Origin: Cladocopium goreaui
Lineage: Eukaryota; Sar; Dinophyceae; Suessiales; Symbiodiniaceae
Length of the DNA: 64,000 nucleotides
Reading direction: 5' to 3'
Assembly (NCBI GenBank): GCA_947184155.2
Contig: CAMXCT020001668.1
Span: 776,081-840,080, forward strand
Positions 4,949 to 21,825 of the stretch are shown here, in pieces. The notes under the pieces were generated by a model. That model made no database searches. It saw only the letters and a list, made by a program, of their open reading frames with translations, and was not told the DNA's origin. The position numbers and the translations under genes are program-made. Every line of letters begins with the position of its first letter. Positions within the stretch are counted from its first letter, which is position 1.

Positions 4949-5351
4949 GTAGGACCTTTGCCCCTCGGCCACTAAAGTCACTAAAGCTGTGGTGAATGGA
5001 GGGAGCGATTTGGCCATAGCTATGGGTGTAGCCGAAGATTCCCTATCTTCCATGGGGATGATAGGTCAAACTACTCAGGTCTCAATACCTGCCCTTTGCG
5101 ATCTAAGATGGCTAGAACATCTGCAGGGTCGGAGAAGGTTCTAAACTACAAAGTAGTGCCCCGTACTTAGCCAAGTATGACTAGGTGAACTGTTTGAGGT
5201 GGATACTGTATATCTATACTATTATTCCATATTATTCCAATCTATTCTTAAACTATGTGTATTTAAATATATATATATATATATATGTATTATACATGTA
5301 TATACATCATATATATACATCATTATCTCCAGCTTTTGGTAGCTTATCCAG

Positions 5352-5450
5352 CCCTAAAATTCCGCCGACTCGCTGAGGATGCCCTGCACATCCTAGCGCT
5401 GCAAAGGGCCAAGAGCTTCGATTTGCACATGGAGAACTGCAGCTTGGCGA
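5352..5450 (+). CDS. Putative exon, helical
   Basis: TATCCAG acceptor. Reads LKFRRLAEDALHILALQRAK then SFDLHMENCSLAR; an alternative acceptor at 5332 would add LLVAYPA. No GT donor precedes the in-frame TGA at 5462; a GA or GC donor, used by some dinoflagellates, is possible. Confidence 0.5.
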
Positions 5451-5676
5451 GGAAAAAAAACTGAGGTCCCCACAAGTTGGTGAGGTAAGTTGACGACTCT
5501 AAGTTTGCTTCATAATATGATTTTTGGGGAATATCATTCCATGGTTAGTTTTTAGTTGATTGAGTAGGTATATCCGGTATCCTCTGGTATAATCCAACAT
5601 GGTTGGCTAGAAAATCCCCTGTGGGTATCTATAAATCACGGATTTTCCACTGCCATATTTGCTTCACATCGGCCAG

Positions 5677-5798
5677 GTCGGCAAATCTCCGAGGGCTGGC
5701 TGGCACTGCAAAATGTCCATAGCTATCAGGCCATGTCCAGGCCGGCGAAGCGATCGGATAATCCGAGGAAACTGCGGAGCATGTCCAAGTGCTATGTT
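5677..5798 (+). CDS. Putative exon, basic
   Basis: GGCCAG acceptor. Reads RQISEGWLALQNVHSYQAMS and then a basic stretch (RPAKRSDNPRKLRSMSK) up to a TGA at 5799. Donor not resolved. Confidence 0.42.
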
Positions 5799-6120
5799 TG
5801 ATGAACGGAGGGTCAACGCAGGAAAAACAACACATGTTTTCTGGCAGCTTTGACCAACTAAACACCATACATGTTGGATTGCACAGAAAAGGCGCAGAAA
5901 ACAGGAGACCATAGGAGACCCGTTAAGGTCACCCCTTTTTTCGCAGGACACACAAAGGTGCCACCAGGATGACCATAGACCTTGCCTGCCTCACTGTGCA
6001 GGTTATATCCACGACTGGCGGCCATCGAGAAAGAGATGGAAGTGGTTTGGCCGAGAACAGCATCCATCATGCCGTGCAGCATGGGTTAACCAGCACCAAT
6101 TCGTTGGGAATCATGTGTTG

Positions 6121-6233
6121 CTGGTTGGTGGTTTGGAACATGATTTTTATTTTTCCATTCAGTTGGGAATTTGATCATCCCAACTGACTTTCACTCCATC
6201 ATTTTTCAGAGGGGTAGGTATACCACCAACCAG
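6121..6233 (+). mobile_element. Foldback element family A, copy 5
   Basis: Near-identical to copy 3, including CACTCCATCATTTTTCAG and GGGGTAGGTATACCACC. It lies about 145 bp upstream of an exon-like island. Confidence 0.85.
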
Positions 6234-6237
6234 ATTG

Positions 6238-6345
6238 GGAATCATCAGATTTCCATCAAATTTCCATCAAATTTCCATCAAATCATTACTAAATCATTAA
6301 CAAATTTCCATCAAATTTCCATCAAATCATTAAATGGTCATCCAT
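6238..6345. repeat. 12-bp repeat TTTCCATCAAAT
   Basis: Runs of TTTCCATCAAAT are interrupted by AAATCATTA segments. They immediately precede an exon-like island and may provide its pyrimidine tract. Confidence 0.8.
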
Positions 6346-6378
6346 CAAACTCATCCAAAATTTCCGGGCACTTTTCAG

Positions 6379-6484
6379 ACAGCCTGGGGAGTTCTCCAGG
6401 ATACGATTCGCAGCATGACGGAGCTCACCAATCCGGGTCGCCTGGTTTTTGAGCGAAAACCCCCCAGTGATCGAAAAGTGGGAT
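6379..6484 (+). CDS. Putative exon
   Basis: ACTTTTCAG acceptor in phase 0. Reads TAWGVLQDTIRSMTELTNPG then RLVFERKPPSDRKVG before TAG. Product unknown. Confidence 0.5.
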
Positions 6485-6873
6485 AGCTGGAAAAATATCA
6501 GGTAAATAATGCCCATAGCAGTCTATAAACACGTGGTTACTATAGACGTATTCGTAGGCACATAGGTATATTAAGTTTGCCTCCATAAATTGGGATATGT
6601 TGGGATATGGGGCCCCTTATGGGGCCCGGCCTAACTATTATGGTTGTATCAGTTTGTCTTTTGTATACCGCTTATTGAGCTGCGAATTGAGCAAAGAAAA
6701 AACCTGTTGTTTTGTCGTTGCGGTGTTCAATACCCTACATGACATGTAAACGCTGAAGTTAGATGGGAGAGGTTTTTGTTATTGAATTTGCCACATTTAG
6801 ATACCAGGACCATGTAGGATCATGTAGGCTGAAAGAACTGGAAGAGATATGAACACCTCATTCCGGGCTTGAC

Positions 6874-6960
6874 ATGACTGTGAGAACTGTGCGCAATAGT
6901 GACGATTCCGAAGAGACAGCAGGGCAGCACCGGTTCTCTTCCAATGATGAGCTCCGCAGC
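6874..6960 (+). CDS. Putative coding island, acidic/Ser-rich
   Basis: Frame open from about 6850, with an ATG at 6874, to TAG at 6961. Reads VRNSDDSEETAGQHRFSSND. Splice sites not resolved. Confidence 0.35.
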
Positions 6961-7120
6961 TAGAGATGGGACATCACAACAACTCCCTGACTGAGGTTGT
7001 GAGTATTTTTTTGATCCTGGGGGATGAATACCAAGATGAAATCCCCCTCAAGAAACCCTGGTTGAGTATAGGGTGTGTGACCGTTTGTGGTCCTGGTGAG
7101 GAGATGACATCGATTTTCAG

Positions 7121-7152
7121 ATCTGCAAAGGGCCCATGATCCAATCCGAAAG
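7121..7152 (+). CDS. Putative 32-bp exon next to the LINE
   Basis: GATTTTCAG acceptor and GTAGCT donor. Reads ICKGPMIQSE plus two bases. It is the last plus-strand island before the antisense LINE. Confidence 0.3.
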
Positions 7153-7284
7153 GTAGCTGGATGGTAGCTGGATGGCTGTTTTTTTTTTCAGTATCGCTGG
7201 GGAAGGTACTTTGGCTGGTTGTTTTCTTTGTCACTCATCCAACTATAGGGCAAAGCCTCTGAGATGCCTCAGAACAAAAACAAC

Positions 7285-7335
7285 TTTATATATATATATA
7301 TAATATCATATGCATATATATATATATATATTCAT
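7285..7335. repeat. TA microsatellite at the LINE 3 prime boundary
   Basis: Two blocks of alternating TA flank a TGCATA core just beyond the 3 prime untranslated part of the LINE. It may mark the insertion target or the element tail. Confidence 0.7.
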
Positions 7336-7425
7336 CAATGATAATTAATATCACTTTTCCCATCACTTTTCCTGCTGATCTCAAAGTAGACGGCCGAAGC
7401 GGACTACATTGAGCCCCCAAAACTT

Positions 7426-10400
7426 CTACATGCCGAAGAAATCGAGATCCTTCCACTCCACGTATCGTGCACGGCAGCTCGCGAGTTGTTGGTCAATTGC
7501 GGCTGTTCGTTCTGGACTTACCATGACCGTCACACAAGGGCACCAGAACTGCAAGACGTCAGAGGTTGGCCTGCAAAGTCGCAGGGGGGGCTCTACCTTC
7601 AAGTGTTTCCATGTGCGTGTGACATAATTCATGAACCATCGGCACCTTTTCCTGAAAGGCACTGTCGGGCAATCTCGGCCATTTTGCCATGCTTTAACAG
7701 TTTTCTTATACCATGGGGATGTGTTTGGGTAACATACCTGAAGATCAAGATAAAGCTGATACCAAGACCACAGCTGGATCGGTTGTCCATCCTCATGAAT
7801 AGTATCTATCCATTGCGCTATCTTACCCCAGTCCTCAGTGATGTAGGGTGCAAGCGGGGCACCCAAATGGCTAACTCGCCAGTGAGACATCACTATGGTT
7901 TCAGCTGAGTGGGTCGGCCCTTGTGCCACAGAGACTCCCCGTGACTGGTGAGATTTTAAACGCAAAGCAAGATTCCCAACTTGTACAAACATGGTGTGCA
8001 AAGAACAACGAAATGCTACTAACTCTCGAACCTGCTTGGATACCACTTTCCATAGTTTGTGTACATGAGGAAAACTAAGGCAGATTTTCCCTGCTGCCTC
8101 ATCTGCCGCTGCGTTACCTGCGATTGCAAATTCAGTAGCTGGGTCTGCGTCTTCATAGTTCTCTTGGTGGCTGTAAACTTTGAGAATTCCCTTACACAAG
8201 AGTTTGGTTCGGTGGGCCCACAGGTGAAGGGTCAATAGCAAATCATGATTGGCAGTTTTGTGAGAAATCTTGGAAAAGAAAAAATCAGGTGTTTCAAAAG
8301 CCTGTCGCAACTCATTTACTACAAAGTCATTATCAATCCACAACCGAAATGGCTTACGGAGACGATCCTCAAGAATCAAAGCAGCTATGACAGCTGTCAG
8401 TTCAGCTCTAGTGATTGTCTGGATCAGGCCCGGCAATACACTTGCTCCCACTGGTGTGAAATCATGTTGGTTATCTGGCGTGTAAAGGACAATTGCCCAA
8501 GATGCTAGTCTGGTCATTTTGCAGGCTGGGTTAAGGCATGACCCATCTGTGAAAATGTCTAAAGTGGGTGGGACTATTTCGGGAATAATTAAATTATGGG
8601 TGTTGTCAGGAATATTGTGAAGTGCTTGTCGGAAATAAGGCAATGCTGCAGGTGCTGGAATCCATCCGTGGTTGAAAGTCGCAGGGTGCGACTGCATGGC
8701 CAGTTGGCGGTGGTGTTCAGGCATAGATTTTCTGGCATCTTCCAGGCTTGGGCATTCCCAATGTCTGTGAAATTGGCTGTCTGCGTTATGGCAAAAAGGG
8801 CAATCTGTACTTTCATCTGCATCCCGATATTTTTGATGGTCAGCAGTGAAAAAGGTGCCGTTGAGGCATTTCCTAAGTATGCTGGCATCACTGGAATTTT
8901 GCGGGAAATTTGCTGTAGTAAGGTATGGTGAAGTTTGGGAAATCTCTTGGAATGAGGCTCTGTGTGCAACATGATGCATCGCTTGGGTTTGCCACGCTTC
9001 TGTCAGGCGCAGTCTGATGTCTTGTATTGGTTGCTGCCATAAGTCAATTGCGAAACCATTGTGGTCCCAAAAGGTATCATCATCCCAGTGCCAGTTGATT
9101 GCATGCAGCCTCTGCAGCAAAACACTGCACGGCCCTACTGTTGGTTTTTTCCTGTCATTGGGCTCAGCGAGTTTGGTCAATACTGGAATGCAGGCATCTG
9201 CTTCTGTCATGGAACGGAAGTCCATGACTGTTTTGAGGACTCCATGAAAACCAGGGTCGGCCGAAGGATGTTCCACTAGACTAAGGTGTATGGCGGGTGA
9301 TGCCCCCCACATATGTTCCCCAAGTCCCCGCAGTGCTCCAGTACGCAGGTGTTCATAGTGTTCATCACCTAAGTGGACCGAGGTTATTCCATGAAGGGCA
9401 TTGGGCCATGCCACCATTTTAATGGCTTTCAGTTTCTGGGTGTACGGTGCTTGGGATCTGGCAATGTCGGGCCATCTGGACTTGAAATTCTTGATTCTGT
9501 TAGTGATGACACTATTTGTCATTTGTTTGGAAAACTGTACGTGTCCTCCTAATTCACGTGTCCACATTGCCACTTGGTGCTCACTGTCTCGGAGGTATTT
9601 CCTTTCCTTTTTATCATTTGACCAAACAACTGTCTTCTTTTCGTCGAGTTGAATGTCTAAAAGTTCAGTGATTCTCCTTAGTTGATACAAACCTTCTCGT
9701 GTCAGGTGTGCCCTGTTGGAGATAACTTCCATGTTATCAACAAAAGACAAGAGTTTGACTTCAGGGGCTCGGTGTTTCATGAAACAATCGATGAGGCAAT
9801 TTATGGCAAACATCCCTACCACGCTTAATCCGCAACCTTCCGCACATCCTGTGCTGGATTTTATGGGTGGTCCAGCTGACCCCCTGATGCTGAATCGGCG
9901 GACCATCCCTTGTAGTGCCCGAAACCACGTTGATACCAGGTTGGGGTGAACTCCTAAATGTGTAATAACCTCCATCATCGGGATGCGTGGTAGATGATTG
10001 AAACATTTAACCACGTCAACTATAGCCCCTGAGATTGTTGTTGAATCATGATTGGCTGCTTCAATGGCAGTTTGAACTCCCATCCAGACTTGCGATGCCG
10101 ATCTATTTGGAACATTTCCGAAACATCCTGTTGGGGCGTATCGAGAAACATGCCTAAGAATCTCACGAGACCTGATGGATGACCAACATCGATATATAAC
10201 ACTGAACAGGGTTATAGGCCGGTACTGGGAAATTTTTGAGGCGTTTGGGATTTTTTCTAGACTATGGACTAGTCCTACCAGTAGGGATGATGGCCACTCC
10301 TTACCACACTCAATGGCGTATAGGAGGTCGAGAAGTACTTGTGTTTGGTACTTCGGCATGTGTAGTAGGTCCTGCCGGGACCACCCATCTGGTCCGACGG

Positions 10401-10539
10401 CGGACCGGCTCTTTTTCTTTTTGAGTGTGTTGTACCAGGTGTCCAGGCTGATTTTGGTATGTGGCATGGGATCTCCTCGTGGTGTGTTCTTAGTGAAGTG
10501 TGCTACAACTGGATCCCAATAGTCAACTGGCATCTCCAC
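7426..10539 (-). CDS. LINE reverse transcriptase and RNase H ORF
   Basis: 1037 codons counted from a GTG at 10539; the first ATG is at 10533. Reverse transcriptase occupies about residues 45-290: GPDG (49-52), QYRPI (105-109), VDVVKCFN with catalytic Asp175, GCAEGCGLS in place of GxPQGxxLS, and FVDN (266-269) where most families have YADD. A CPFC...H...H...C zinc motif lies near residue 590. RNase H spans about 660-820 with TDGS, RAELTA, IDND and a final GNAAADEAA carrying the fourth Asp. These activities copy the element RNA at the nicked target. The frame stays open upstream of the GTG to about 10660 and reads there as coding (EIRDEWRKRWDRH). The endonuclease and RT were therefore probably one frame, split by an indel or by programmed -1 frameshifting. 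Confidence 0.9.
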   Translation of the reverse strand: MEMPVDYWDPVVAHFTKNTPRGDPMPHTKISLDTWYNTLKKKKSRSAVGPDGWSRQDLLHMPKYQTQVLLDLLYAIECGKEWPSSLLVGLVHSLEKIPNASKISQYRPITLFSVIYRCWSSIRSREILRHVSRYAPTGCFGNVPNRSASQVWMGVQTAIEAANHDSTTISGAIVDVVKCFNHLPRIPMMEVITHLGVHPNLVSTWFRALQGMVRRFSIRGSAGPPIKSSTGCAEGCGLSVVGMFAINCLIDCFMKHRAPEVKLLSFVDNMEVISNRAHLTREGLYQLRRITELLDIQLDEKKTVVWSNDKKERKYLRDSEHQVAMWTRELGGHVQFSKQMTNSVITNRIKNFKSRWPDIARSQAPYTQKLKAIKMVAWPNALHGITSVHLGDEHYEHLRTGALRGLGEHMWGASPAIHLSLVEHPSADPGFHGVLKTVMDFRSMTEADACIPVLTKLAEPNDRKKPTVGPCSVLLQRLHAINWHWDDDTFWDHNGFAIDLWQQPIQDIRLRLTEAWQTQAMHHVAHRASFQEISQTSPYLTTANFPQNSSDASILRKCLNGTFFTADHQKYRDADESTDCPFCHNADSQFHRHWECPSLEDARKSMPEHHRQLAMQSHPATFNHGWIPAPAALPYFRQALHNIPDNTHNLIIPEIVPPTLDIFTDGSCLNPACKMTRLASWAIVLYTPDNQHDFTPVGASVLPGLIQTITRAELTAVIAALILEDRLRKPFRLWIDNDFVVNELRQAFETPDFFFSKISHKTANHDLLLTLHLWAHRTKLLCKGILKVYSHQENYEDADPATEFAIAGNAAADEAAGKICLSFPHVHKLWKVVSKQVRELVAFRCSLHTMFVQVGNLALRLKSHQSRGVSVAQGPTHSAETIVMSHWRVSHLGAPLAPYITEDWGKIAQWIDTIHEDGQPIQLWSWYQLYLDLQVCYPNTSPWYKKTVKAWQNGRDCPTVPFRKRCRWFMNYVTRTWKHLKVEPPLRLCRPTSDVLQFWCPCVTVMVSPERTAAIDQQLASCRARYVEWKDLDFFGM

Positions 10540-10660
10540 ATGTCGGTCCCAACGTTTCCGCCACTCATCACGAATCTCCGGAAGAGCTCCTCCAGGTCTC
10601 CTACAAACTTTTCTTGACGCAAGGTGGTTCCGATTTGAATATGGTCAACTTTTTCAGCCC
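10503..10660 (-). other. Overlap of endonuclease and RT frames (-1 relation)
   Basis: The endonuclease frame runs to the TAG at 10503. The RT frame is open from about 10660 and its residues over this stretch look like conserved LINE linker. The switch therefore most likely falls around 10580-10640. I see no clear slippery heptamer with a downstream pseudoknot. Confidence 0.55.
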
Positions 10661-12338
10661 AAATTTTGTCATCGGAGCAGATTATGGGGTCAATCAATCC
10701 ATCTGGGGAGATGATTGGTAGACTATCATCAAACTGGGGATTATTGGACAGGGTTATGGAGTTATCTTCAAGGTCTATGTCCAAAACTTCACAGCTGCAT
10801 GAGTCATCTAATATTTCGACTGGGGAAGCTGTGGGCAATTTAATGTCTGCAAAGATTCGATTTGGGTTGGCGACCCGATTGGCTCTTGCGGTATTCTGCA
10901 GGTCGCGGATGAGGATTTTTTCAAAGTCCCTAAAGCTGGCTTCAAATATAGAAACAATTTGGTCAATTTCGTGAAGGGTGGGTATCTGCCATCCCAGTTC
11001 CCGGGGAGCACCCGCAGTCATGGTTGGGCATTTTTTCCACCAATTTTGGAAACCGAATGGGAAACCGGAGCTAGTGATTATACTTCTCCATTCACGTTGG
11101 GCATGTATCTGCTGATTTTGTGAAGCAAAATTATTGCTGTGAATAAGGCGCTTGATGGATTCTAGTCTTCTCATTTGTTTATACCACTGTTGGTGTCTGA
11201 GGCATTGACCATGATATTCAGGCTTCACATGGCCATGCCTGGTGGGTTGGAGTGGCCTGGTGTGGTCTTGAATGACCTTCGTCTGCGTTGTGAGGGATCT
11301 GCCCCGCTGGCAAGTTTGTAACCCTTTTTGGGATTTAGTGATCATTTTGTCATTTACGACATCTTCAAACCCTTTAGCAATGGCTTCAAGCTGCTTTTGC
11401 GTGCAATCATCTGGATTGGTATGGGTGGACGTTTCTGGCAAAATGCCAATGTCTTTTGACCAGTCAATGGCACGTGGCTGCCTCCAAACAAAAGATTTAG
11501 GGGGTTTACCAAGGTTTGTGAACTCAGCAAAGAGCGTAAGGTGATCTGGGAATTGATCAAAAGTTTCTACTTTATGGAAGAAAGGGATTAATTCCGGGCT
11601 AATCCAAATGAAGTCTTTCGTAGTAGTTTTGTGGCAAGTTTTTGAAATTGGTCGGGCGTATTTTTCTTTTCCGAGGACTTGGCACTCTCTCCATCCTTGG
11701 TCATATAGTCGCTTTGGCTGTTCGAGCACATCATATTCTTGGTTAAAGTCACCCACAAGGAATCGCTTTCCTTTGGCCATGAGTAACCTATCTACCACTT
11801 TTTCCATCAAGGCATTTGTGTGGTTCCTACCTTCCTGTGTGGCGGCTTGTTGTGCGTATCCATAGAAGACCCCTCCTGTCAACCACTGGTCGTTGACAAG
11901 AAATGAGTGCATGGCAAATCTGGCTTCATTCCAATCGTCATCTGACCAGGTCGGATGCAAGGGTCTTGTGGGTGTGTTGGAAAGCCACCCTGTACCTGTG
12001 TGTTTGCCACCAATGGCAGTGAAAGAGGTACTCCGCAATGGAGCTGGAGCTCCGGCATGGAAACGAAAATGGCTTTTTACCAGTTTTAGGCTTCGCTGAA
12101 ACTTGGCAATACCTGGTTTTGATAAGTGGGATTCGCAAACTCCATAAATTGTACATGTGGAACTTGGGAGTTCCTGGAGTTGATCCAACTTGTGCATTAT
12201 CCCATTCGGATTGATGGCTCCTAGGATAAGCTCTGGTTGAACAGGGCCGGGGTTCAAAGCTTCACCAATCCTAATGTAAATCCCGTCAATGGTCAAATGA
12301 ACCATTAATTTGCTAGTGCGCGGATGGCACCTTGGCAT
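10503..12338 (-). CDS. LINE AP-type endonuclease ORF
   Basis: 611 codons of the exonuclease-endonuclease-phosphatase fold, which nicks target DNA to prime reverse transcription. Visible motifs are AINPNG (Asn in the first metal-binding strand, about 43-45), GVCESHL (catalytic Glu69), a GDFN box near residue 196, SKTCHKTTTKDFIWI (about 228-242) and a terminal FPDHLTLFAEF His motif near 262. The N-terminal GEALNPGP (residues 25-32) is a leader I associate with dinoflagellate LINE endonucleases. The last 200 residues are a linker to the reverse transcriptase. The frame is that of ORF1, separated by one TGA. It ends at a TAG inside the next ORF, which lies in the -1 frame. Confidence 0.88.
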   Translation of the reverse strand: MPRCHPRTSKLMVHLTIDGIYIRIGEALNPGPVQPELILGAINPNGIMHKLDQLQELPSSTCTIYGVCESHLSKPGIAKFQRSLKLVKSHFRFHAGAPAPLRSTSFTAIGGKHTGTGWLSNTPTRPLHPTWSDDDWNEARFAMHSFLVNDQWLTGGVFYGYAQQAATQEGRNHTNALMEKVVDRLLMAKGKRFLVGDFNQEYDVLEQPKRLYDQGWRECQVLGKEKYARPISKTCHKTTTKDFIWISPELIPFFHKVETFDQFPDHLTLFAEFTNLGKPPKSFVWRQPRAIDWSKDIGILPETSTHTNPDDCTQKQLEAIAKGFEDVVNDKMITKSQKGLQTCQRGRSLTTQTKVIQDHTRPLQPTRHGHVKPEYHGQCLRHQQWYKQMRRLESIKRLIHSNNFASQNQQIHAQREWRSIITSSGFPFGFQNWWKKCPTMTAGAPRELGWQIPTLHEIDQIVSIFEASFRDFEKILIRDLQNTARANRVANPNRIFADIKLPTASPVEILDDSCSCEVLDIDLEDNSITLSNNPQFDDSLPIISPDGLIDPIICSDDKIWAEKVDHIQIGTTLRQEKFVGDLEELFRRFVMSGGNVGTDMWRCQLTIGIQL

Positions 12339-12356
12339 GCAATCATGGATTGTGTG

Positions 12357-12359
12357 TCA
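12357..12359 (-). other. Single in-frame TGA between LINE ORF1 and endonuclease ORF
   Basis: ORF1 ends in RMRHGE followed by TGA. Six sense codons (HTIHDC) then lead to the ATG of the endonuclease ORF at 12338 in the same reading frame. Readthrough would fuse the two proteins. Alternatively, termination followed by reinitiation 18 nt later would make two proteins. Confidence 0.8.
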
Positions 12360-15300
12360 CTCGCCGTGACGCATACGCTTATTTAAAAGCGCTTCTATCC
12401 TGCTCATCTGATCATCCATCTTTGACTCCAGCATTTTTTGAAGGCTGGACTGCTGTGCATCCACTTGGTTCTTCACCGCAACAATCTGGGAGCTCATCTG
12501 TCCATTGTGCTGTTGTTGTTGGGATTGGAAGGCATTCAGGTTGGATGTCAGTTGGTTCACATTATGCTGCAGTGTTTGGACTTTCGTTTCCAACTCATCA
12601 ACCCTCTGATCATTCACCCCTTCCATATCCACATCCGCGGTTTTGTGGGGCTTCATGTTTGCGGTGACATGTTTGGCAACGGATGCTTCGATGGCGGCAG
12701 ATTGGGCAGGTGTCAAGGCATGAGGAAAACCACTTCCTTGACTCCACGGGTCGGCTTGCAGCCATGGATCTGTGGCAGGTTTGCTCTTGTCTGTTTCTGG
12801 TACCTGTGTCATTGATTGGATGGTCCGTCTGGACGCTACCAAACCTTGGCTGGGAACTTTGTTGGCCTGAGTTTTGTGCGGTTTGATCGGTGAGATCAAA
12901 ATATCTCCTTGTTCCAGGGAGTATACCCAGTGGGAAGGGTTTTCACTGGATTGGGTTGACCAGAAGACACCTTCCTGCCCAATACTTTGTCCCAGAGGTT
13001 GGCCGGGGCGTGCTGTCCACCCCCACTCCTTGTAGAGCTTCTGTAGAGAGCTCTTGGTGGTACCAAAAGGCAGTGGTCCAACACGGTATGTGGTCATCTG
13101 TTCTCCTGCCATGTAATCCACGTCTGGGCGGTGTTGTTCATGGATATCCTTTGCAAATTCACAATGGGTTCTCAGTCCAAAACGATCCCCGCTGCGAACT
13201 AACCAAGTTGGGTGCAAACTGGTTTGTTTGGCAAGCATGACATCCTGGAAATTTTTGCGTGGCATCCAGATTACTTTGTAGGATGTGTCTGGGGACCTAC
13301 CCGTATGATCACGCGGTTCAAAGTACTTCCCTGCTTGACCGCTGGCGTCTAGGATGACTTCATGGGCAGGACACTTGACACGGAAAGTGACAATGAAGAT
13401 CTCTGCTTCCTCTGGTTTGCATCGTTTGTACTGTTTTGTCACATACTGGCGGTCCCAAACGTCAACGATGGAATCGGGATTTGCGGTGAACTCACTTTCA
13501 GCAAACAAAGTTCGCACCGGCTTGTCCGTGATATCGGTCCATTTGAGTTTGGTCTGATCCTGAAACACCAGTGCACGGATGACACGTGTTTCCACTTCCT
13601 CAATCTTGGTTGCGGATTGTGGTGTTGCTCTGTGAACTCGTTTCTGGCCTAGCTGGAAAAGAGCTCCCATGACCAACATTGGTTCACCCGTAGGTTTGCA
13701 GGTGGCTGGGAAACGTACCAAATCATGCGATGGCAGGCGAGGATCATCATGGTCAAGCACAATCAAACCTAGGCCTTCCTGTGTGAGTGGCACTTTCAAC
13801 TGCAGGAAGGGTGTAGCATCATCAAAGGATACACACGCGATCCCTTTGCATTGGGCTTTGAATTGGCTAGGGGAAATCTGTTGCAAAAGGACTCCATCGG
13901 CTTGCTGGAAGATCGTGTTGGGGATCTGGACCTGATCGGCAATGAGGCGCTGGGGTTCCTGCGGCTTGGATTGTTTTGCTTTGTGTTGCTTTCTGCCAAC
14001 GGCTTGTCCCGATGCGATTTTGCTGTCGATACTGGCTTGAAGTTCTTCACTCAAGACAATTCGAAAAGGAGGCTTCAACTGTGATGCTCTTGCTTTCAAG
14101 TCCTGCCATGGCTTTGGTGATTGTAATGTGCGTTGGATCACATCGGCTCCCAGCTTTTGCGTCAAAGCTTGTGCAGCTTGTGATGACCTGTTGCTATTCA
14201 CTCCGTGCTTTTCGAGGAGTTCTCGTAGTGCTGGCAAGTGCTGGTCAGATGTTCCTCCAAGCGGCAAAGCATATACTGGTGGATCATGTGCTCCTGACAA
14301 GACCAGATGGTGAGCAAAATTCTTTCTCCATGACTCAGCTTCATCGGGAGAGATTGCACGGTTGCTGTCCGGATCCAATGCTTGGTTGATGATCCATGCA
14401 ATGGTCTGAAATCCACAATCATTGGCAAACGCATGGGGCATGTGTGTTCCACTTGCCTGCTGATATTCTTCCAGCATCTCAGCCTTGATCCATGCTGTTA
14501 CTGCCGGCGTCATATCATATGTTGTTGTGATGGTGAAATTGTCATTGACTACTTCAACCATGATTGGAAACCAGTGATCTTTGAACAAACCCGCAGTCAT
14601 GAGTTTCATTTGTTTGGACTCCTGCGCGCTCTCAACGGCCGTGAGGATCCAATCTGCCAAGATTCTTGGGTTTTCTGTTTCTTGCCTCAAGTCCAAAGGG
14701 CTGGTGGTGACTGCTGTCCCTGAAACATGTATTGTCTGAAGGTAAAAGATCATTTCATCCATCGCAACCCATCCTTTCTGATGCCAAAGGGCTTGGGAAC
14801 GTTTCATTCCATCCAGGCATGGTTGGCCCTTTGGGTCTCCAATGTTATGTCCATGCTGAACAATTAGGAGTTGATGGTCTGGCATGATCTCGGACACTGA
14901 CAATTGGAACCCCACCCCATTAACTGGTTTGAAAGGGTGATCGCCATGATTCCAGAGGTGCTGGAATTTTGCTTCTGCGCAAACTACTTGACCAATGGTG
15001 GACTCAGTTGAAACGGCAATGGGAAACATGGTTTCGTTCTCATGAGCAATCCAGCAAGTCTTGGTGTTGGCAATTTGTGACTCAGGAGGCTCGACCTGTT
15101 GCATGGATATTTGTTGATGCTCATTTTGGTGGTGTTCTCCGTCTTGGTGCACTCGGTCTGGTGCATTTGGATTGTCAAGCTTGGCTCTTTTTGTGCTGTT
15201 GCTTGCACTCTCTTCTACCGGTCGCTTGAGTGATGGCGGTGAATCAGGTGCTTTGCTGGTTTCAAAGCCTGTAACCCCTCCATTGGTGGAAAAGGCTGTA

Positions 15301-18098
15301 ATTTGCATTGCTTGCGAGGCTTCTTTCACCGGGTTGATGCTTGTCGGCAAGGATTGGTCATGAGGGGCAATGCTCGCTAGTATGTATCCACCTTTGCCTT
15401 TGGCAATCCTGTCATTCATCTTGGCTTTTGTTGTGGAAACTGATGGACCAGAAAGAGGCTGCCTTTCATCCATGTCACTTCTGACATTGCCATGTTGGGC
15501 TTCACGTGAATCAACACCTAGGTCAGCAAAGGCATCTGATGCATGCTTGGTTTCTCGGCGAACGGATGCATTTTGCAGGCCGGATGCAACGGATGTCATC
15601 TGTTGATCTGTACACCGATCGGATGCAACCCTGGATGCTTCTGTACCTCGGATTTTGTCGGGATTCGGATGTCCTGTGCCTTCGGAGATGATGTGATCTG
15701 TACACCGATCGGATGCGACCCTGGATGCTTCTGTACATCGGATGCTGTCGGGATTCGGATGTCCGGCGTCTTTGGAGATGATGTGATCTGTACACCGATC
15801 GGATGCAACCCTGGATGCTTCTGTACATCGGATGCGGTCGGGATTCGGATGTCCGGTGTCTTTGGAGATGATGTGGTCTGTACACCGATCGGATGTAACC
15901 CTGGATGCTTCTTCATATCGGATGCGGTCGGGATTCGGATGTCCGGTGTCTTTGGAGATGATGTGATCTGTACACCGATCGGATGCAACCCTGGATGCTT
16001 CTGTACATCGGATTTTGTCGGGATTCGGATGTCTTGTGCCTTCGGAGATGATCTGATCTGTACACCGCTCGGATGCAACCCTGGATGATTCTGGACATCG
16101 GATGCAGTCGAGATTTGGATGTCCTGTGCCTTCGGAGATGATGTGATCTGTACACCGCTCGGATGCGACACTGAATGCTTCTGTACATCGGATGCTGTCA
16201 GGATTCAGATGTCCTGTGTCTTTGGAGATGATGTGGTCTGTACACCGATCGGATGTAACCCTGGATGCTTCTGTACATCGGATGCGGTCGGGATTCGGAT
16301 GTCCGGCGTCTTTGGAGATGATGTGATCTGTACACCGATCGGATGCAACCCTGGATGCTTCTGTACATCGGATGCGGTCGGGATTCGGATGTCCTGTGCA
16401 TTTGGAGATGATGGCATGGTCGGATGCATCGGGTATGGGCGCCACTACGGTCGGAGAGATTCGATCTGTGTTTGTCGTCCCTTCGGCTGCAAGTCTGTCT
16501 TCTGGGATTCCAGCATTCCTAGGGTATTCGGATGCATCCCTTGGGAACTTTGTACACGGCCCGCTGTCTGGTGCAGATGCTCCATGAATGGATGTCTCGT
16601 AGGTTCCAATCAGGTTGTTGGGTTTTGGATCCTGTTCGGTGTTTGCTGTACAACCGGCGCGGGGAATCTTTGTACACGCTCGGGCGCCCAACTTTGCTTC
16701 ACCTGCACCTTTCGGCCTGAATTCCATGTTATCCAACTCCTCAACACTTGGAAAGCAAAAAGGATGATCAATGCTGTTAATTTCATGTTGGAAAATCCGG
16801 TTGTATTTCGTGTCAGCATGTGGCCAAATTTCATCCCTTTCCTTCAGCAGAATTCGACAAAACTGTGCTAGGGAATGCCTGGGATGTTCCACCTGTTGAA
16901 CCAGTCCTTTGTCCTGCAATTGGTACAAAACGTTGGCAAACACCCACAAAGATTGGAGTGGCGATGCGCATTGACCCACTCCTGCCAGGTCAAGTCGAAT
17001 GTTGCTGGTGTCGGATGCTTGCAAGTATGACGGAGGGAGTCCGCACATCAGTGATACCTCAGTCGGGTGTAAATGGCGCGCACGGAGAGACATGTGAGGC
17101 TGCTTTGCATCCTCAAACGGCACAAGCACTCCGTAAATCCCCTTGCCTGTTGGCATCCCCTTACATGTGTTAATGCAATGTGATCGGATACCCCTTCCAT
17201 CCGTTTGGAAAGCACTGAGTTCATCATCATCAAGTACAAGTTGTTTCATGTCGCATGTGTTACTGTCCATCATGTTGGGGATGAGATGAAGAATGAAAGG
17301 ATCAAACCGCAGAGATGGCATGGGAGGAATGTCTTCAAGCGGGACATACTCTGCTGCAATGGTACACCACCATCTGTCCCTGCGTCCTGGCCACATGTGA
17401 TGCATCTGCAGTACCTCTTGTTTGAAAGTACTTCCTGTGAGCTTACTGTGCAATTCTAAATGGCTTTGAATCCATTGGGATCGCTTGGCTTGAGGGGTAC
17501 ATTCCAAAATGGTCATGACTGATTGTAAAAGATAGCTCAACTGAAGGGTTCCAGTGAAAGACCTGCTATGATCATCCAGTGAAAACGGTTGACATGAGAT
17601 ACCTGCGCTCACCATCTTTCCAGACCCGGTCTGCTTTGCGACTTCGGCCGCCGTAGCTGACGCTGAGATGTCTCCTTGAATCACTTGGACTGAGTACCTG
17701 TCTTTCACCCATTTGCAAAAGGTCGGATTCTGCTCCACGAAAAGGCATGTGTCAACTCCCAAAAATCTGAAACCAACGTCAACTGCCCCGATTCCTGCAC
17801 ATCCCTCGATCAACTGCTGAAGCTTCTCAATGTTTGTCGACTGATGCTCTAGCAAAAAAGAATCACTTCTGAAATCCAACCAAGGCCTACGACCATTCAG
17901 GAAAGATACCTTGAATAATGTCATCTTCATCGTGTTTCTATTGATCGGAGCATTGGTGAGGAAAACTTGGTGGTTGACCATAGATCTGCAAACATGGGCC
18001 CCAGGGCAGAAAATCAAAACCTGTGCCACCACATCTGTCTGCTGGCCATCCGAAAGGTCAGAAAACGAAGGTTCCAGGAAATTGGATGAAACGCCCAT
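12357..18098 (-). CDS. LINE ORF1: C5-cytosine DNA methyltransferase polyprotein
   Basis: 1913 codons. The start is the ATG at 18098 in a strong GCCATGG context, with an in-frame TAA two codons upstream. Residues about 95-390 show the ordered motifs of C5 methyltransferases: motif I (EGCAGIG, 98-104), motif IV (GISCQPFS with catalytic Cys169; the usual Pro before Cys is Ser), a motif VI-like LEC around Glu199, motif VIII (RRDRWW, 239-244), motif IX (RHLHPTEVSLMCGLP, from 341) and motif X (about 372-390). The enzyme would transfer methyl from S-adenosylmethionine to cytosine C5. Residues about 563-831 are a 30-residue tandem repeat. Around 1170-1235, DHWF, TTYD and ANDCGFQT appear in the His-Asp-Cys order of Ulp1-type (C48) peptidases. 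The last 100 residues are Gln-rich coiled coil, as in other LINE first ORFs. No stop or frameshift interrupts it, so selection may be recent. Confidence 0.85.
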   Translation of the reverse strand: MGVSSNFLEPSFSDLSDGQQTDVVAQVLIFCPGAHVCRSMVNHQVFLTNAPINRNTMKMTLFKVSFLNGRRPWLDFRSDSFLLEHQSTNIEKLQQLIEGCAGIGAVDVGFRFLGVDTCLFVEQNPTFCKWVKDRYSVQVIQGDISASATAAEVAKQTGSGKMVSAGISCQPFSLDDHSRSFTGTLQLSYLLQSVMTILECTPQAKRSQWIQSHLELHSKLTGSTFKQEVLQMHHMWPGRRDRWWCTIAAEYVPLEDIPPMPSLRFDPFILHLIPNMMDSNTCDMKQLVLDDDELSAFQTDGRGIRSHCINTCKGMPTGKGIYGVLVPFEDAKQPHMSLRARHLHPTEVSLMCGLPPSYLQASDTSNIRLDLAGVGQCASPLQSLWVFANVLYQLQDKGLVQQVEHPRHSLAQFCRILLKERDEIWPHADTKYNRIFQHEINSIDHPFCFPSVEELDNMEFRPKGAGEAKLGARACTKIPRAGCTANTEQDPKPNNLIGTYETSIHGASAPDSGPCTKFPRDASEYPRNAGIPEDRLAAEGTTNTDRISPTVVAPIPDASDHAIISKCTGHPNPDRIRCTEASRVASDRCTDHIISKDAGHPNPDRIRCTEASRVTSDRCTDHIISKDTGHLNPDSIRCTEAFSVASERCTDHIISEGTGHPNLDCIRCPESSRVASERCTDQIISEGTRHPNPDKIRCTEASRVASDRCTDHIISKDTGHPNPDRIRYEEASRVTSDRCTDHIISKDTGHPNPDRIRCTEASRVASDRCTDHIISKDAGHPNPDSIRCTEASRVASDRCTDHIISEGTGHPNPDKIRGTEASRVASDRCTDQQMTSVASGLQNASVRRETKHASDAFADLGVDSREAQHGNVRSDMDERQPLSGPSVSTTKAKMNDRIAKGKGGYILASIAPHDQSLPTSINPVKEASQAMQITAFSTNGGVTGFETSKAPDSPPSLKRPVEESASNSTKRAKLDNPNAPDRVHQDGEHHQNEHQQISMQQVEPPESQIANTKTCWIAHENETMFPIAVSTESTIGQVVCAEAKFQHLWNHGDHPFKPVNGVGFQLSVSEIMPDHQLLIVQHGHNIGDPKGQPCLDGMKRSQALWHQKGWVAMDEMIFYLQTIHVSGTAVTTSPLDLRQETENPRILADWILTAVESAQESKQMKLMTAGLFKDHWFPIMVEVVNDNFTITTTYDMTPAVTAWIKAEMLEEYQQASGTHMPHAFANDCGFQTIAWIINQALDPDSNRAISPDEAESWRKNFAHHLVLSGAHDPPVYALPLGGTSDQHLPALRELLEKHGVNSNRSSQAAQALTQKLGADVIQRTLQSPKPWQDLKARASQLKPPFRIVLSEELQASIDSKIASGQAVGRKQHKAKQSKPQEPQRLIADQVQIPNTIFQQADGVLLQQISPSQFKAQCKGIACVSFDDATPFLQLKVPLTQEGLGLIVLDHDDPRLPSHDLVRFPATCKPTGEPMLVMGALFQLGQKRVHRATPQSATKIEEVETRVIRALVFQDQTKLKWTDITDKPVRTLFAESEFTANPDSIVDVWDRQYVTKQYKRCKPEEAEIFIVTFRVKCPAHEVILDASGQAGKYFEPRDHTGRSPDTSYKVIWMPRKNFQDVMLAKQTSLHPTWLVRSGDRFGLRTHCEFAKDIHEQHRPDVDYMAGEQMTTYRVGPLPFGTTKSSLQKLYKEWGWTARPGQPLGQSIGQEGVFWSTQSSENPSHWVYSLEQGDILISPIKPHKTQANKVPSQGLVASRRTIQSMTQVPETDKSKPATDPWLQADPWSQGSGFPHALTPAQSAAIEASVAKHVTANMKPHKTADVDMEGVNDQRVDELETKVQTLQHNVNQLTSNLNAFQSQQQQHNGQMSSQIVAVKNQVDAQQSSLQKMLESKMDDQMSRIEALLNKRMRHGE
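15604..16410 (-). repeat. 90-bp coding minisatellite inside LINE ORF1
   Basis: About nine units with a 90-bp period; the CTGTACACCG core recurs at about 15608, 15698, 15788 and so on to 16328. The period is a multiple of three and encodes a 30-residue unit with cores such as CTDHIISKDTGHPNPDRIR. Units differ mainly by point changes, and the frame is kept throughout. Confidence 0.9.
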
Positions 18099-18167
18099 GG
18101 CTTAATCTACCCGCCCGAAGTTTGGCCAGGACCGCTCTACCCCCCTGGTAGGATTCGGGCCCAGAGC

Positions 18168-18187
18168 CTTGAGCCATTTTGACCATG
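18168..18187 (-). other. Possible relic spliced leader upstream of LINE ORF1
   Basis: On the minus strand, 70-90 nt upstream of the ORF1 ATG, 20 nt ending in TGGCTCAAG match 14 of 20 positions of the 3 prime part of the conserved dinoflagellate spliced leader, including a run of nine. A retrotransposed trans-spliced mRNA would carry such a relic at its 5 prime end. The match may be chance. Confidence 0.25.
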
Positions 18188-18445
18188 ACCCACAGTAAAA
18201 AAGATCTGTAAACAGACGTAGCTAGTAGACTCGGACATCACTTTGCACAGGTGCGGAAGCGCCCGAAACAGACGTCATTGAGGAGGCCAAAATCGGACCA
18301 CAATTTGCTGAGTCCCGGGGAAATCCACTACCGCTCTGGAATCGATTTAGGGAATGTGTTCAGCAAATCCCAGGGGAAATAGCTCACCTGTGTCAAAATA
18401 GTCCGTTTGGCGGCTATTTTGATGTGGGGCATTGGATCATTGAAT

Positions 18446-18718
18446 TCACATGGATCCATTTAACATCATGAAGCTATCAAACACAGAAGGTACCACTGCT
18501 TTTAAGGGGTTACACGTGGTCTCCAAATGCACACATGCAACGTCACACAGATCGTAAATTCGCATCGTGTTTTTTCCGCACCCTCCGTTGTACTTGTGGA
18601 AAGAAATTGGTTTAGAAGACGGTTTCCCATCTAAATTCCACAAATCGGGATCTATACCCACCAGCTCAGCTAAAGTTGCAAGATATCTAAGATTGGCCGT
18701 ATCATGGACATGAAGCCA
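18446..18718 (-). CDS. Unknown minus-strand open reading frame
   Basis: About 90 codons open between stops on the minus strand, upstream of the LINE 5 prime end. There is no ATG near the start. Segments such as DTANLRYLATLAELVGIDP and GGCGKNTMRIYDLCDVACVH have a protein-like composition with four Cys. It is not in the frame of LINE ORF1. It could be an exon of a minus-strand gene or a remnant of another retroelement. I do not recognise the family. Confidence 0.3.
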   Translation of the reverse strand, partial: WLHVHDTANLRYLATLAELVGIDPDLWNLDGKPSSKPISFHKYNGGCGKNTMRIYDLCDVACVHLETTCNPLKAVVPSVFDSFMMLNGSM

Positions 18719-18719
18719 T

Positions 18720-18963
18720 TAAGCAAATTACATGTTACTAATCTCATACATGAGCACAGGAACCCCCATGGACTTTAAGGGTCAAAATCAGAACTTCTTG
18801 TAGTTTTTATTCATGTCTTGAAAATCTATCAATTCGACATGTCAATATCATCCATGATGCCGCTAGCTTATGGCGGCCATAGCTTAGTATGACTCTGATT
18901 CGATCCTGAAGTGACGTGTTCCCTCATGTTCCCTTTAGATGTCCCTTGGAAAATCAACCCGAT
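18720..18963. other. No gene seen
   Basis: Ordinary A/T-rich spacer between the unknown minus ORF and family B copy 2. Confidence 0.5.
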
Positions 18964-19069
18964 TACCCTCTGGTAATTTAACATAACTATGGAAAATCAC
19001 CATTTTTCATGGGAACTTTCACTCTAAATGGCCATTTTCAATAGCTATGTTTGACATACCCAGAGGGTA
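18964..19069 (-). mobile_element. Foldback element family B, copy 2
   Basis: TA-CCCTCTGGTAATTTAACA to CCCAGAGGG-TA. The internal arm GGAAAATCACCATTTTTCAT is the reverse complement of copies 1 and 3. Confidence 0.8.
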
Positions 19070-19101
19070 CCATCCATTCACCGTGAAAGCGATCGTCACA
19101 G

Positions 19102-19194
19102 GAGGAGCCCAAGAAAGATGAGCACCCGAAGCGGCGTGCGCAACGACGGCGTGTGGCCTGGCGACCAACAACCATCAACTACCATGACTGGGGA
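19102..19194 (+). CDS. Putative exon between two inverted foldback elements
   Basis: CGTCACAG acceptor. Reads EEPKKDEHPKRRAQRRRVAW and then RPTTINYHDWG; the TAG that ends the frame is the flank of family B copy 3. Copy 2 ends 32 bp upstream of the exon. Strongly basic. Confidence 0.5.
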
Positions 19195-19300
19195 TAGCCT
19201 CTGGTTATGTCAAACATAGCTATTGAAAATGGCCATTAATAGTGGATTTTCCCATGAAAAATGGTGATTTTCCATAGCTATGTTAGTTTACCAGAGGATA
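19195..19300 (+). mobile_element. Foldback element family B, copy 3
   Basis: TA-GCCTCTGGTTATG to TTTACCAGAGG-ATA with ATGAAAAATGGTGATTTTCC. It is inverted relative to copy 2, and an exon-like island lies exactly between the two. Confidence 0.8.
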
Positions 19301-20176
19301 GCTGAAATATGGTCCCAGCCATCAAAATGGATGTGATGGAATGGGCGTGGTGCAAATGGCACTGGCTTTAAAACACAGTTACTGGCTTTGCCACTTTTTT
19401 ACAGAGTTTTGGGAGAGATTTTCTCTCCCACATCTTTGAAGCATGAAAAATCGTGGGGATATTTTTTTAAAATAAATATACGTAGTTTTTAATGTATACA
19501 ATGCATGTACACCTGACAATGATCTGATATGGATGATATAGGTTTTCAATGGTTTTCACCATCAGGACTATGGGATCTAGCGATGCCGAGGGGAAACAAT
19601 CAGTTGCCAGACTAAATTGTACCGGATATGAGTTAACTACCACAGATTTGGGGTGAATTGGGTTGAATTTGCCATCCGCAAGTGATCAAACCGGTTTATT
19701 TAGGTTTCATGTTTCACTTCATGTGGGTTTGTCCGAAAATGGAGCAACCCAAAGTCTCATGGTTTCTCTCTCTGGGTCTTTTGGAACCCCGACTTTCAGA
19801 CACACCTAAATATCATATCTTTGGTTAGCTGTATCCCATGTTACACCGCATATCATATCGCATCTCCATATATTCCAGGTACAGTTGGCTATATCTCCCA
19901 TTGTGCACCTGCTAAATTCAACCTTAAAAAAACCAATTTCGAACCTGTGGTTTTCAACGATAATGTTCCGCACTTTATCGCCATGCACAGGGGTGGTTCC
20001 ACGTTAAATTTAGGGATTAGCGAGGTGTATCTAACTTTATCCTATTCATCCCCTCCCCCTATTGGTGGCCCATATGGAGGGTAATGATTGAAGATCATAT
20101 TAGCAGTATCAATCACCCCTCCAGGATGATTAAACCAAGTTGTAAAACAAAGAACCATGGTTACTCGCCGGCATTT
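19301..20176. other. No gene seen
   Basis: Unstructured sequence apart from short open frames on both strands that look random. Confidence 0.5.
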
Positions 20177-20270
20177 GTTTAAACATAGCTATGGAACACC
20201 ACGACGTTTTTAATTGGTAAACCATCTATACATGGTCCATTTTCCATAGTTGTGTGAGATTACCAGGTAA
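20177..20270. mobile_element. Foldback element family B, degenerate copy 4
   Basis: AAACATAGCTATGG and TTTTCCATAGTTGTG arms are recognisable. The left CCCTCTGG end is lost, and the right end reads TTACCAGGTAA. Confidence 0.5.
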
Positions 20271-20376
20271 TCTTCCATATGTTCCCACATTTTCCCGCAT
20301 TTTCCTCACATTTTCCTCACATTTTCCCACATTTTCCAACATTTTCTCCACCATCCCCGTCCTGTCCCCGGCCAAG

Positions 20377-20496
20377 GAGACCATGCGCAAACGTCGCCAA
20401 GCGATGGAGAAGAAGATGTCCTCGGTCCCCGAATCCTCGCAGTCCTTGTCGGTGCCGACGACCGATGACGACCGACGACCGCTGGTGGTGCAAATA
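20377..20496 (+). CDS. Putative exon, basic then Ser-rich
   Basis: It follows a long TTTTCC-rich pyrimidine tract (20270-20350). Reads ETMRKRRQAMEKKMSSVPES then SQSLSVPTTDDDRRPLVVQ. The acceptor AG at 20375-20376 is the likeliest. Confidence 0.45.
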
Positions 20497-20581
20497 TAAG
20501 GGGAACCTTAATGGTGGTTAATGGTGATTAATGGTGATTAATGGTGGTTTTTTAATGGCTAATAGTGAATTAATGGACATA

Positions 20582-20698
20582 TACCCTCGGGTTCTTTGAC
20601 ATATAGCCATGGTATAGATGGCCCATAGAAATAGATGGTTTACTGTTCTTAAAAATGGTGGATCTTTCCATGGCTATGTTAGTCATAACCAGATGGTA
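20582..20698 (+). mobile_element. Foldback element family B, copy 5
   Basis: TACCCTCGGGTTCTTTGACA to CATAACCAGATGGTA. A further partial left end (TAGCCTCTGGTTCTTTGAC) starts directly at 20697, so two copies abut. Confidence 0.6.
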
Positions 20699-21825
20699 GC
20701 CTCTGGTTCTTTGACATAGTCAATGCATTGTGTCACACATTGGTTTAAGGGAAGTTTTACAGGAAAGCTCCATATTTAAAGGGAAAATCGATGGTTTCCA
20801 ATAGTCCCTTGAACCAATCCATTGACGTAGCTGTGGAAAACCGATCATTTCTGGATGACTTACCTATATATTTACTTTTACCTATGTTTACCTACCGCAT
20901 TAAAAATTGTGATTTTCCATAGCTATATGTAAATAGCCACATAATGGGAATATGATGGTATACTCTGGTATACTGGTATATTCTATTTCTGGATAAACCT
21001 AATCTAGTAAAGCAATAGTGAACCATTCCCAAATTCACCAATGCTTTTTATGGGTGGTATCAACCATCAAGATATGGGTGTTCATGCTTCACGAACATTA
21101 CTTATATTATACGAATTTCAATTATCACATATATATATATATACCTACAGACTCCTCTAGGCAGAAAAAAGTGCCCAACCTGCCTGTAGGCGTTTATTTC
21201 TGCCGATGAAACCAGAATAAATGCCTAGGCCCAAAAAAAATGCCGAGGCTGATAGATTTTTGTATGGTCTTGTCATGTTGTTCAGTGCTGAAAAATGTTT
21301 CGAACAAAATTCTTCCAAATTCCGTTTCTCTGCCACCTAGATTCCGGTTTTTTCCGCCTAACTTCCGGCTAAAAATGCGTTGGCACTAAATGATGTCGGA
21401 GCAAAAAAACATCTTGAGATAAAAATGCCTACATCAATATAAACCTGCCGAGTTTTGCAAATTTCCGGGTGAAAGTGCCTATGCGGCTGCCTAGGCGCCG
21501 AGGGCAGAAAAAAGTGCCCAAGGGTTCTTCTAGTATAGATCACATCATAGTTTAGTGCTACTTATGTGGGAAACTCCATACCATGAACCTACCATTTGGG
21601 GATTGGGTATACCACCCACAAAAATAGTGATTTTGGGGATGGTATGTTTAGTGTCAACAGCGCTGCTAACGACCCCTCCCGATTTGCCAATTTTCCTTGC
21701 TGCCTCAAGTGCATGCCTCAGCTTCTCGGGTCTTGTCATGCATTCAGTGTGTCGGGTGGGTGGGTGGGGGGGTAGGGGTTGGTGCGGGGGGGTGTGGTGT
21801 GGGATAAAAGTGTCATTGGCACGTC
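20699..21825. other. Decayed repeats, no gene seen
   Basis: It holds eroded family B arms (to about 20950). A segment at 21150-21520 begins and ends with GGCAGAAAAAAGTGCCCAA and contains several AATGCCTA phrases, so it may be a separate repeat element. A minus-strand piece near 21650-21740 (RPEKLRHALEAARKIGKSGG) is coding-like but unsupported. Confidence 0.5.

Follow-up and report, generated by a model that had tools for sequence, protein, structure and literature searches.

A 64,000-nucleotide stretch of the Cladocopium goreaui genome (assembly GCA_947184155.2, contig CAMXCT020001668.1, forward-strand positions 776,081 to 840,080; the whole stretch is called the window here) holds what we read, at a probability of roughly two in three, as a recently inserted, full-length, endonuclease-type long interspersed nuclear element (LINE) of the SymbioLINE-Dnmt kind, with a methyltransferase (MTase) at the start of its first open reading frame (ORF1) and a cycle of the form proposed below. 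SymbioLINE-Dnmt is the dinoflagellate LINE with a DNMT in ORF1 described by de Mendoza et al. (2018, Nat Commun, PMC5890265), so the initial annotation was correct in stating that dinoflagellate LINEs had been reported to carry MTases. The element spans window positions 7354-18167 on the minus strand, which is also the strand of all its features given below, from the 5′ end GCTCTGGGCCCG at 18167 to the 3′ end GGAAAAG at 7354. The TGAT at 7353-7350 belongs either to the element or to the target, and with it the span, taken from an alignment of 13 copies and the target-site duplications (TSDs) of five sister copies, becomes 7350-18167. Three ORFs follow one another: the 1913-codon ORF1 (12357-18098, ending GAG-TGA-C), an endonuclease-like ORF (10503-12338) and an ORF assigned to reverse transcriptase (RT) by its RVT_1 and RNase_H matches (7426-10539). 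This is the order that the initial annotation had described, and its central claim, a LINE with its own C5-cytosine MTase, is borne out by the ORF layout, a Pfam DNA_methylase match and a profile match to M.HhaI.

The age of the element can be judged from its sister copies. In the 1.166-Gb assembly (6202 contigs; C-numbers are contig labels, and C5490a and C5490b are separate copies) there are at least 13 near-identical copies, the window copy included. Over their main aligned pieces the sister copies match the window at 99.4-99.9% identity, except for one C949 piece at 97.2%, where a unit of a tandem array is missing. TSDs, read by eye, flank five sister copies and all start with TGAT (16 bp in C949, 14 bp in C5895, C1604 and C5490a, 8 bp in C6010). 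Together, identity and TSDs support the recent activity that had been suggested from the window alone. Insertion sites differ among copies wherever flanks were read, except that the window and C5490b have a common 3′ flank, and the 3′ ends read (GGAAAAG) carry no poly-A tail. The 70-nt 5′ leader region of the element occurs at nine places in the genome, at seven of them nearly whole and at two over 47 nt. Five of the 13 copies have an uninterrupted ORF1, four are truncated by contig ends and four have a frameshift in ORF1.

The MTase core, placed by Pfam, PDB profile and alignment, runs from motif I to motif X over aa 98-380 (16959-17807). Pfam DNA_methylase matches aa 98-199 of the stop-to-stop frame (E=2.7e-5; E=3.3e-7 in the N-terminal 450 aa), and a profile of eight family members, the window included, matches M.HhaI in the PDB (E=7.4e-9) as well as HaeIII and DNMT2 structures; these PDB matches indicate only that the protein is of the C5-MTase kind. 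By eye, the start of the 1913-codon ORF shows, as the initial annotation had stated, the blocks that we take to be motifs I (EGCAGIGAVDVGF), IV (GISCQPFS), VI (ILECT), VIII (RRDRWW), IX (RHLHPTEVSL) and X (GVGQCASP). The association is not peculiar to the window copy. The initial annotation had named copies without the MTase in that ORF as a refutation, and none was seen: the window-family copies in which the ORF1 start is present carry the MTase there, although small deletions interrupt its frame in C1604 and C949, and 79 further MTase matches were listed outside the window family. A separate genome search with the Pfam DNA_methylase model, the hits of which do not include the window MTase, gave 125 matches of 51-194 bits (on C54, C164, C530, C797 and others); many of these form near-identical sets in which the frames are 375-430 aa long.

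Two blocks that other families possess are missing from the window MTase, which we aligned with nine loci from seven other families. All eight loci that cover motif IV have a full-length catalytic loop, CQPFSx(L/S)GDxxxxxD(P/Q)RS, which aligns with M.HhaI CQAFSISGKQKGFEDSRG. The window loop, CQPFSL-DDHSRS, is 8 aa shorter, with the gap directly after CQPFSL (at 17576/17577, within the motif IV and loop segment GISCQPFSL-DDHSRSF, 17556-17603), and the missing block aligns with the SGKQKGFE stretch of M.HhaI. Further on, a block of ~27 aa with TH(S/A)WG(S/N)Q and CxCxCR precedes (K/R)GLY in nine of nine other loci, C1989 having a local deletion behind it; in the window, MPTG is joined straight to KGIYGVL (17124-17156), and ~27 aa of the target-recognition region are gone. 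When the genome was searched with the MTase of the C6004 family, each of the 79 matches outside the window family crossed this block in one piece, which is no proof of a complete block, while all nine window-family copies listed were split at it.

Counts of conserved positions and branch lengths point in the same direction. At MTase positions that do not vary among six other families, the window has the common residue in 79 of 114 cases (13 fall in gaps), as against 134 of 151 in the C-terminal region of ORF1 (ORF1-C; Fisher p=1.4e-4); without gaps the figures are 79/101 and 134/150 (p=0.02), and in the control lineage C968 they are 79/98 and 134/153 (p=0.15). The branch leading to the window measures 1.02 in the MTase core against 0.60 for C968, and 0.745 against 0.755 in ORF1-C. 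Judged from these comparisons and the missing blocks, the MTase is a long-conserved domain that has lost constraint or changed its job in the window family. The deletions in the loop and target-recognition region also make its activity doubtful: the window-family enzyme is probably inactive or changed in specificity, although its frame and motifs are kept. The suggestion in the initial annotation that the element may methylate its own or target DNA is correspondingly weakened. Two points limit this conclusion, namely that the retention of 79 of 114 invariants and all six motifs argues for an MTase still under some constraint, and that the model of the domain from single-sequence AlphaFold could not be used (mean pLDDT 36.8).

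The initial annotation had proposed a dN/dS comparison across copies as a check. Variation among the young copies looks neutral and rests on few changes (ORF1 outside the tandem array, 6 synonymous and 28 nonsynonymous; MTase, 3 and 4; ORF1-C, 1 and 19), so that it neither shows nor excludes selection. Between families, dS was above 2 or not computable in all MTase pairs, the synonymous sites being saturated; to judge by the alignments, it is conservation between families that shows long-term constraint. If copies methylated themselves, a depletion of CpG would be expected, and relative to the flanks it is not seen: the observed/expected ratio is 0.605 for the element, 0.534-0.561 for element parts outside the array and 0.512-0.648 for five other window stretches. 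Eight loci of diverged families have lower ratios (0.44-0.49), in line with PMC5890265, where CG depletion is a statistical property of the group and not a criterion for single copies.

The junction between ORF1 and ORF2 is a further unusual feature. In the window it reads GAG-TGA-CAC (12354-12362), with ORF2 in the same frame and its conserved N-terminal motif, IRIGEALNPGP, at 12243-12275. In all 13 loci read, from 10 families (with the window family as one of them; in C6169 and C4224 a frameshift lies further downstream), ORF1 ends in GAR-TGA-C and the same frame is open into the ORF2 motif, R-x-G-E-A-x-(N/V/H)PGP across families. Two families (C968/C1989 and C1101) have no Met between the UGA and this motif, while the other eight have at least one. 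The base at +4 is C in 13 of 13 loci, and in five of them, from four families, CUA directly follows the UGA; UGA CUA is the human high-readthrough consensus (PMC4359377). A search with a 400-aa query that crosses the C1480 junction gave 106 matches, 30 of which do not span the junction; the 76 that do (at least 40 aa on both sides) contain one TGA in 70 cases, two TGA in four, TGA plus TAG in one and no stop in one (C6063), counts that give the number of stops and not their position, which is known for the loci read only. A TGA is thus present in 75 of 76, and in 63 of the 64 left when 12 further window-family copies are set aside, while none has only TAA or TAG; since spanning requires a single frame, these figures speak to the identity of the stop and not to the share of in-frame loci, and they come from related loci with several near-duplicates. 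The single frame, the conserved UGA and the fact that two of ten families have no AUG ahead of the ORF2 motif point to programmed readthrough yielding an ORF1-ORF2 fusion, which we infer as the best reading of the junction.

Beyond the limits of that search, several observations weigh against this reading. The triplet after the UGA varies among families, and a consistent RNA structure 3′ of it was not found in the 10 families (z from -2.0 to +2.1); a 3′ RNA stimulator is likewise not found in all known readthrough cases, LDHB being an example (PMC4359377). A synonymous excess in the readthrough segment is weak and confined to the closest trio, where codons coding for the same and for different amino acids stand at 3:4, 4:5 and 6:4. 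Finally, C3913/C3199 and C1989 carry a TGA exactly at a conserved MTase tryptophan, at two different positions, so that UGA may be tolerated, or be sense, more widely; these TGA codons could reflect decay or be a hint of leaky or sense UGA. A 2A (StopGo) peptide at the NPGP was also considered and rejected. The 2A consensus is D-x-E-x-N-P-G-P, and the element motif does not conform to it, lacking D-x-E and, in four of ten families, having another residue in place of the N.

The dinoflagellate spliced leader (DinoSL, the sequence of which was confirmed from PMC8045281) is present, whole or in part, at five of nine 5′ ends. C5490a and C4513 have the complete 21 nt, C1291 has 19 of them, the window copy has 9 and C6010 has 8; the window piece, TGGCTCAAG at 18168-18176, is a probable relic recognised by comparison with sister copies. 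In C5490a the TSD, TGATGGTTAGGATT, lies directly outside the complete leader, and a leader enclosed by the duplication indicates that a trans-spliced mRNA can be the template for element copying. The leader joins the element at three points, before GGGGGTAG, before GCTCTGG and before GTTTTTAG, and in longer copies an AG precedes the GGGGGTAG and GCTCTGG points. The case is weakened by the four 5′ ends without a leader (C5895, C5490b, C949, C1604), by the shortness of two of the five leader pieces (8-9 nt) and by the fact that AG is seen at two of the three join points, no longer copy being known for GTTTTTAG.

ORF2 is not intact in the window, contrary to the initial annotation. Its endonuclease part (EEP-like, 10503-12356) is truncated by a one-base deletion near 10572, and the part with RT and RNase H (7426-10644, ending in TAG) is shifted in frame. 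The deletion is found in the window and C5895 and is absent from the other eight of the 10 copies that cover the site; six copies (C6010, C5490a, C5490b, C949, C4976, C4870) have an unbroken ORF2 frame of 1643 aa. Because of this deletion and the unbroken frame in sister copies, we regard the separate endonuclease and RT ORFs as a defect of the window copy, which is unable to make a full ORF2 product by ordinary translation. Three intact ORFs are thereby ruled out, as is a programmed frameshift between endonuclease and RT, the deletion being sufficient to explain the split. In the diverged families, 16 of 30 RT matches lie within open frames of 1614-1700 aa, one of them with a stop. The endonuclease-like protein of the window has no Pfam match at E<=0.1, and Exo_endo_phos is weakly matched in two of six family members (best E=0.0012). 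The RT catalytic box (9724-9744 in the window) is FVDN in all ten copies read, nine of them sister copies; the usual box is (Y/F)xDD, and this deviation counts against our overall reading. C5895, C5490b and C949, with different 5′ flanks, have in common a one-base insertion near 13774 that breaks ORF1 near aa 1440, which implies that a lineage with a broken ORF1 was copied in trans or converted.

The flanks suggest that the window locus is chimeric or duplicated. The 3′ flank (1-7340) is 100% identical over 7340 bp to C5490:237577-244916, beside the copy C5490b, and no second full copy of the 5′ flank was found for the tested stretch 18175-22300. The window copy lacks a TSD, as does C5490b, and this lack and the 3′ flank in common with another locus weigh against our overall reading. 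The locus could be a duplication, or else a chimera that arose in assembly through the element, and either fits better than 3′ transduction; the latter was suggested by the common flank and is thought unlikely, since the identity runs over all 7340 bp tested. Given a possible chimera or duplication, claims that concern the single window copy carry caution. Elsewhere in the window, large tandem arrays with units of ~106, 35 and 53 bp lie at 35282-43246, 51550-53842 and 56184-59949 and have GC skews of opposite signs, and a ~123/246-bp tandem repeat at 25575-26312 has open frames on both strands and a consensus that is RCC1-like by eye only.

The remainder of ORF1 consists of a hinge and the ORF1-C region. 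The hinge holds an in-frame tandem array of nine 90-bp (30-aa) units at 15604-16413, of which C949 has one fewer; the CpG observed/expected ratio of the array is 1.06, against 0.53-0.56 in the other element parts measured. ORF1-C (12360-15200) is conserved across families and ends in a coiled coil. Its segment 14403-14576 is 36-38% identical to six other loci, with HW.P and DCGFQ invariant. The layout around DCGFQ resembles a cysteine protease by eye, a tentative candidate for which Pfam and PDB searches of ORF1-C gave no match at the HW.P/DCGFQ region. Two scans of viral contigs gave no viral relatives of the MTase or of ORF1-C.

These features suggest the following cycle. Trans-splicing would add DinoSL to the element RNA at up to three sites, as shown by the three points at which the leader is fused to copies, two of them preceded by AG in longer copies. 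The ORF1 product would comprise the MTase, the repeat hinge, the conserved C-terminal region and the coiled coil, and a fraction of ribosomes, if conservation is a guide, would pass the UGA-C in frame to make an ORF1-ORF2 protein joining the MTase to endonuclease, RT and RNase H. The RT would then copy the mRNA, leader included where present, at TGAT-containing targets, with priming presumed to proceed as in LINEs in general; the result would be the TSDs of 8-16 bp and the absence of poly-A that are both read in the sequence. In other families a tethered MTase may place methyl marks on the new copy or on the target, as proposed in PMC5890265, whereas in the window family, which lacks part of the catalytic loop and target-recognition region, the MTase is probably inactive or altered in specificity. 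A bolder version, on which the odds lean somewhat against us and which we offer tentatively, would hold that the whole clade of MTase LINEs makes its RT only via UGA-C readthrough, as a ~3500-aa fusion tethering the MTase to endonuclease and RT, that methylation could be coupled to target-primed synthesis, that the template would be a trans-spliced mRNA, and that the window-family MTase would be a non-catalytic or re-targeted module.

The expression and copying of the element could be explained otherwise. Ribosomes might terminate after ORF1 and reinitiate to make ORF2, as they do in SART1 or L1, with the common frame and UGA as inherited accidents; this is known for other LINEs (PMC5972666) and an in-frame Met precedes the R.GEA motif in eight of ten families, and we consider it a serious if rather unlikely contender, since the remaining two families have no such Met, the frame, the UGA and the +4 C are kept although synonymous sites are saturated, and the spanning match C6063 has no stop at all. 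Alternatively, UGA could be a tryptophan codon or generally leaky, making ORF1 and ORF2 one ordinary polyprotein. Some loci do look this way: TGA stands at the tryptophan position of other families in C3913/C3199 and C1989, a second TGA occurs in four spanning matches, and reading TGA as W gives open frames above 3000 aa at many loci. We nevertheless find it improbable given that 70 of 76 spanning matches have exactly one TGA, that TGG becomes TGA by a single transition and that dinoflagellates are generally taken to use the standard nuclear code; all 79 tryptophans of the three window ORFs are TGG as well, which is what an open frame means. As for the leader, it could have come from target DNA, DinoSL genes and relics being common in such genomes (PMC8045281). 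That origin is highly improbable for sequences that lie inside the TSD in C5490a and that are joined to the element at three points in five copies whose 5′ flanks differ. Readthrough of a leader-bearing mRNA remains the reading that we prefer.

Two alternatives concern the MTase. In the first, the LINE is intact and its MTase is active, methylating the element or the target DNA and thereby shaping silencing. This would fit the retention of all six motifs, the long-term conservation of the domain across families and the purifying selection and CG depletion published for SymbioLINE-Dnmt (PMC5890265). For the window family we think this unlikely: ORF2 is broken in the window copy, two conserved MTase blocks are missing from the family, CpG is not depleted relative to the flanks, and the yeast test of a LINE DNMT in PMC5890265 was inconclusive. 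The missing blocks could instead mark a change of function, with the MTase binding or methylating another substrate, such as RNA or a different sequence. In the window and in most sister copies with the domain, ORF1 remains open across the MTase; this and the 79 of 114 invariants kept speak for such a change and give it a real though minor chance; the loop, however, is shortened right behind the catalytic Cys, and the relative acceleration affects the MTase and not ORF1-C. We retain, for the window family, an MTase that has probably lost its activity or altered its specificity.

Since 2018 it has been an open question why a retrotransposon should keep a DNA methyltransferase. An MTase joined to the RT in a readthrough fusion would act where the new copy is made, which would provide a direct mechanism. 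The window family, as a natural variant without two MTase blocks, offers a means of asking whether MTase activity matters for spread, and its recent spread makes it suitable for this question. Leader-tagged insertions with TSDs further show that the machinery of this LINE is able to copy mature trans-spliced mRNA. The leader-tagged retrogenes that dinoflagellates carry could then stem from the same machinery, and retrogenes made in this way should carry TGAT-type TSDs; this bears on a question left open in a 2018 review (PMC6050394), in which the element behind dinoflagellate retrogenes was unknown and LTR (long terminal repeat) elements were favoured.

Among published systems, SymbioLINE-Dnmt is the closest. 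As in PMC5890265, the element is an intronless LINE with the DNMT in ORF1 upstream of the RT ORF, and its ORF2 has endonuclease, RVT_1 and RNase_H, in one frame in six sister copies and broken in the window. TSDs (taken from sister copies), the absence of a poly-A tail and the many diverged subfamilies agree as well, and the complete 21-nt DinoSL in two copies accords with a dinoflagellate host. The key DNMT residues are kept in the motifs, with the loop and target-recognition block shortened in the window family. It is in lacking part of these two regions, compared by published description, and in showing no CpG depletion relative to the flanks that the window element departs from SymbioLINE-Dnmt, for which PMC5890265 reported a DNMT under purifying selection (Ka/Ks < 0.2), a depletion of CG and a yeast test without a clear outcome. 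Neither a UGA junction nor a spliced leader on the element was found in the parts of that paper covered, which mention trans-splicing once in general terms and readthrough not at all, and the portion of the open-access literature covered yielded no description of a dinoflagellate LINE with stop readthrough or a spliced leader. A LINE with a DNMT in ORF1 is thus known. The window family is a variant with an eroded MTase, and within these sources we did not find described the UGA junction or the leader-tagged copying.

More distant systems have single features in common with the element. SymbioDIRS-Dnmt3 and KnitGypsy-Dnmt3 (PMC5890265) are also DNMT-carrying retrotransposons, but they are of the DIRS or Gypsy type with Dnmt3, whereas the window element is an endonuclease-type LINE. 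Gammaretroviral gag-pol readthrough (PMC5009743) likewise has an upstream ORF and an RT ORF in one frame with one stop between them; there the stop is UAG, whereas the element described here has UGA-C with no stimulating RNA structure found and is not a retrovirus. SART1 and LINE-1 (PMC5972666) resemble it as LINEs whose downstream RT ORF is expressed by an unusual route, which is reinitiation in their case, while here the frame is the same and no AUG precedes the ORF2 motif in two of ten families. Lastly, dinoflagellate retrogenes with DinoSL relics (PMC6050394, PMC12014239) are, like the leader-tagged copies, trans-spliced mRNAs reverse-transcribed into the genome. What differs here is that the RNA would be that of the LINE itself, naming machinery able to perform such copying.

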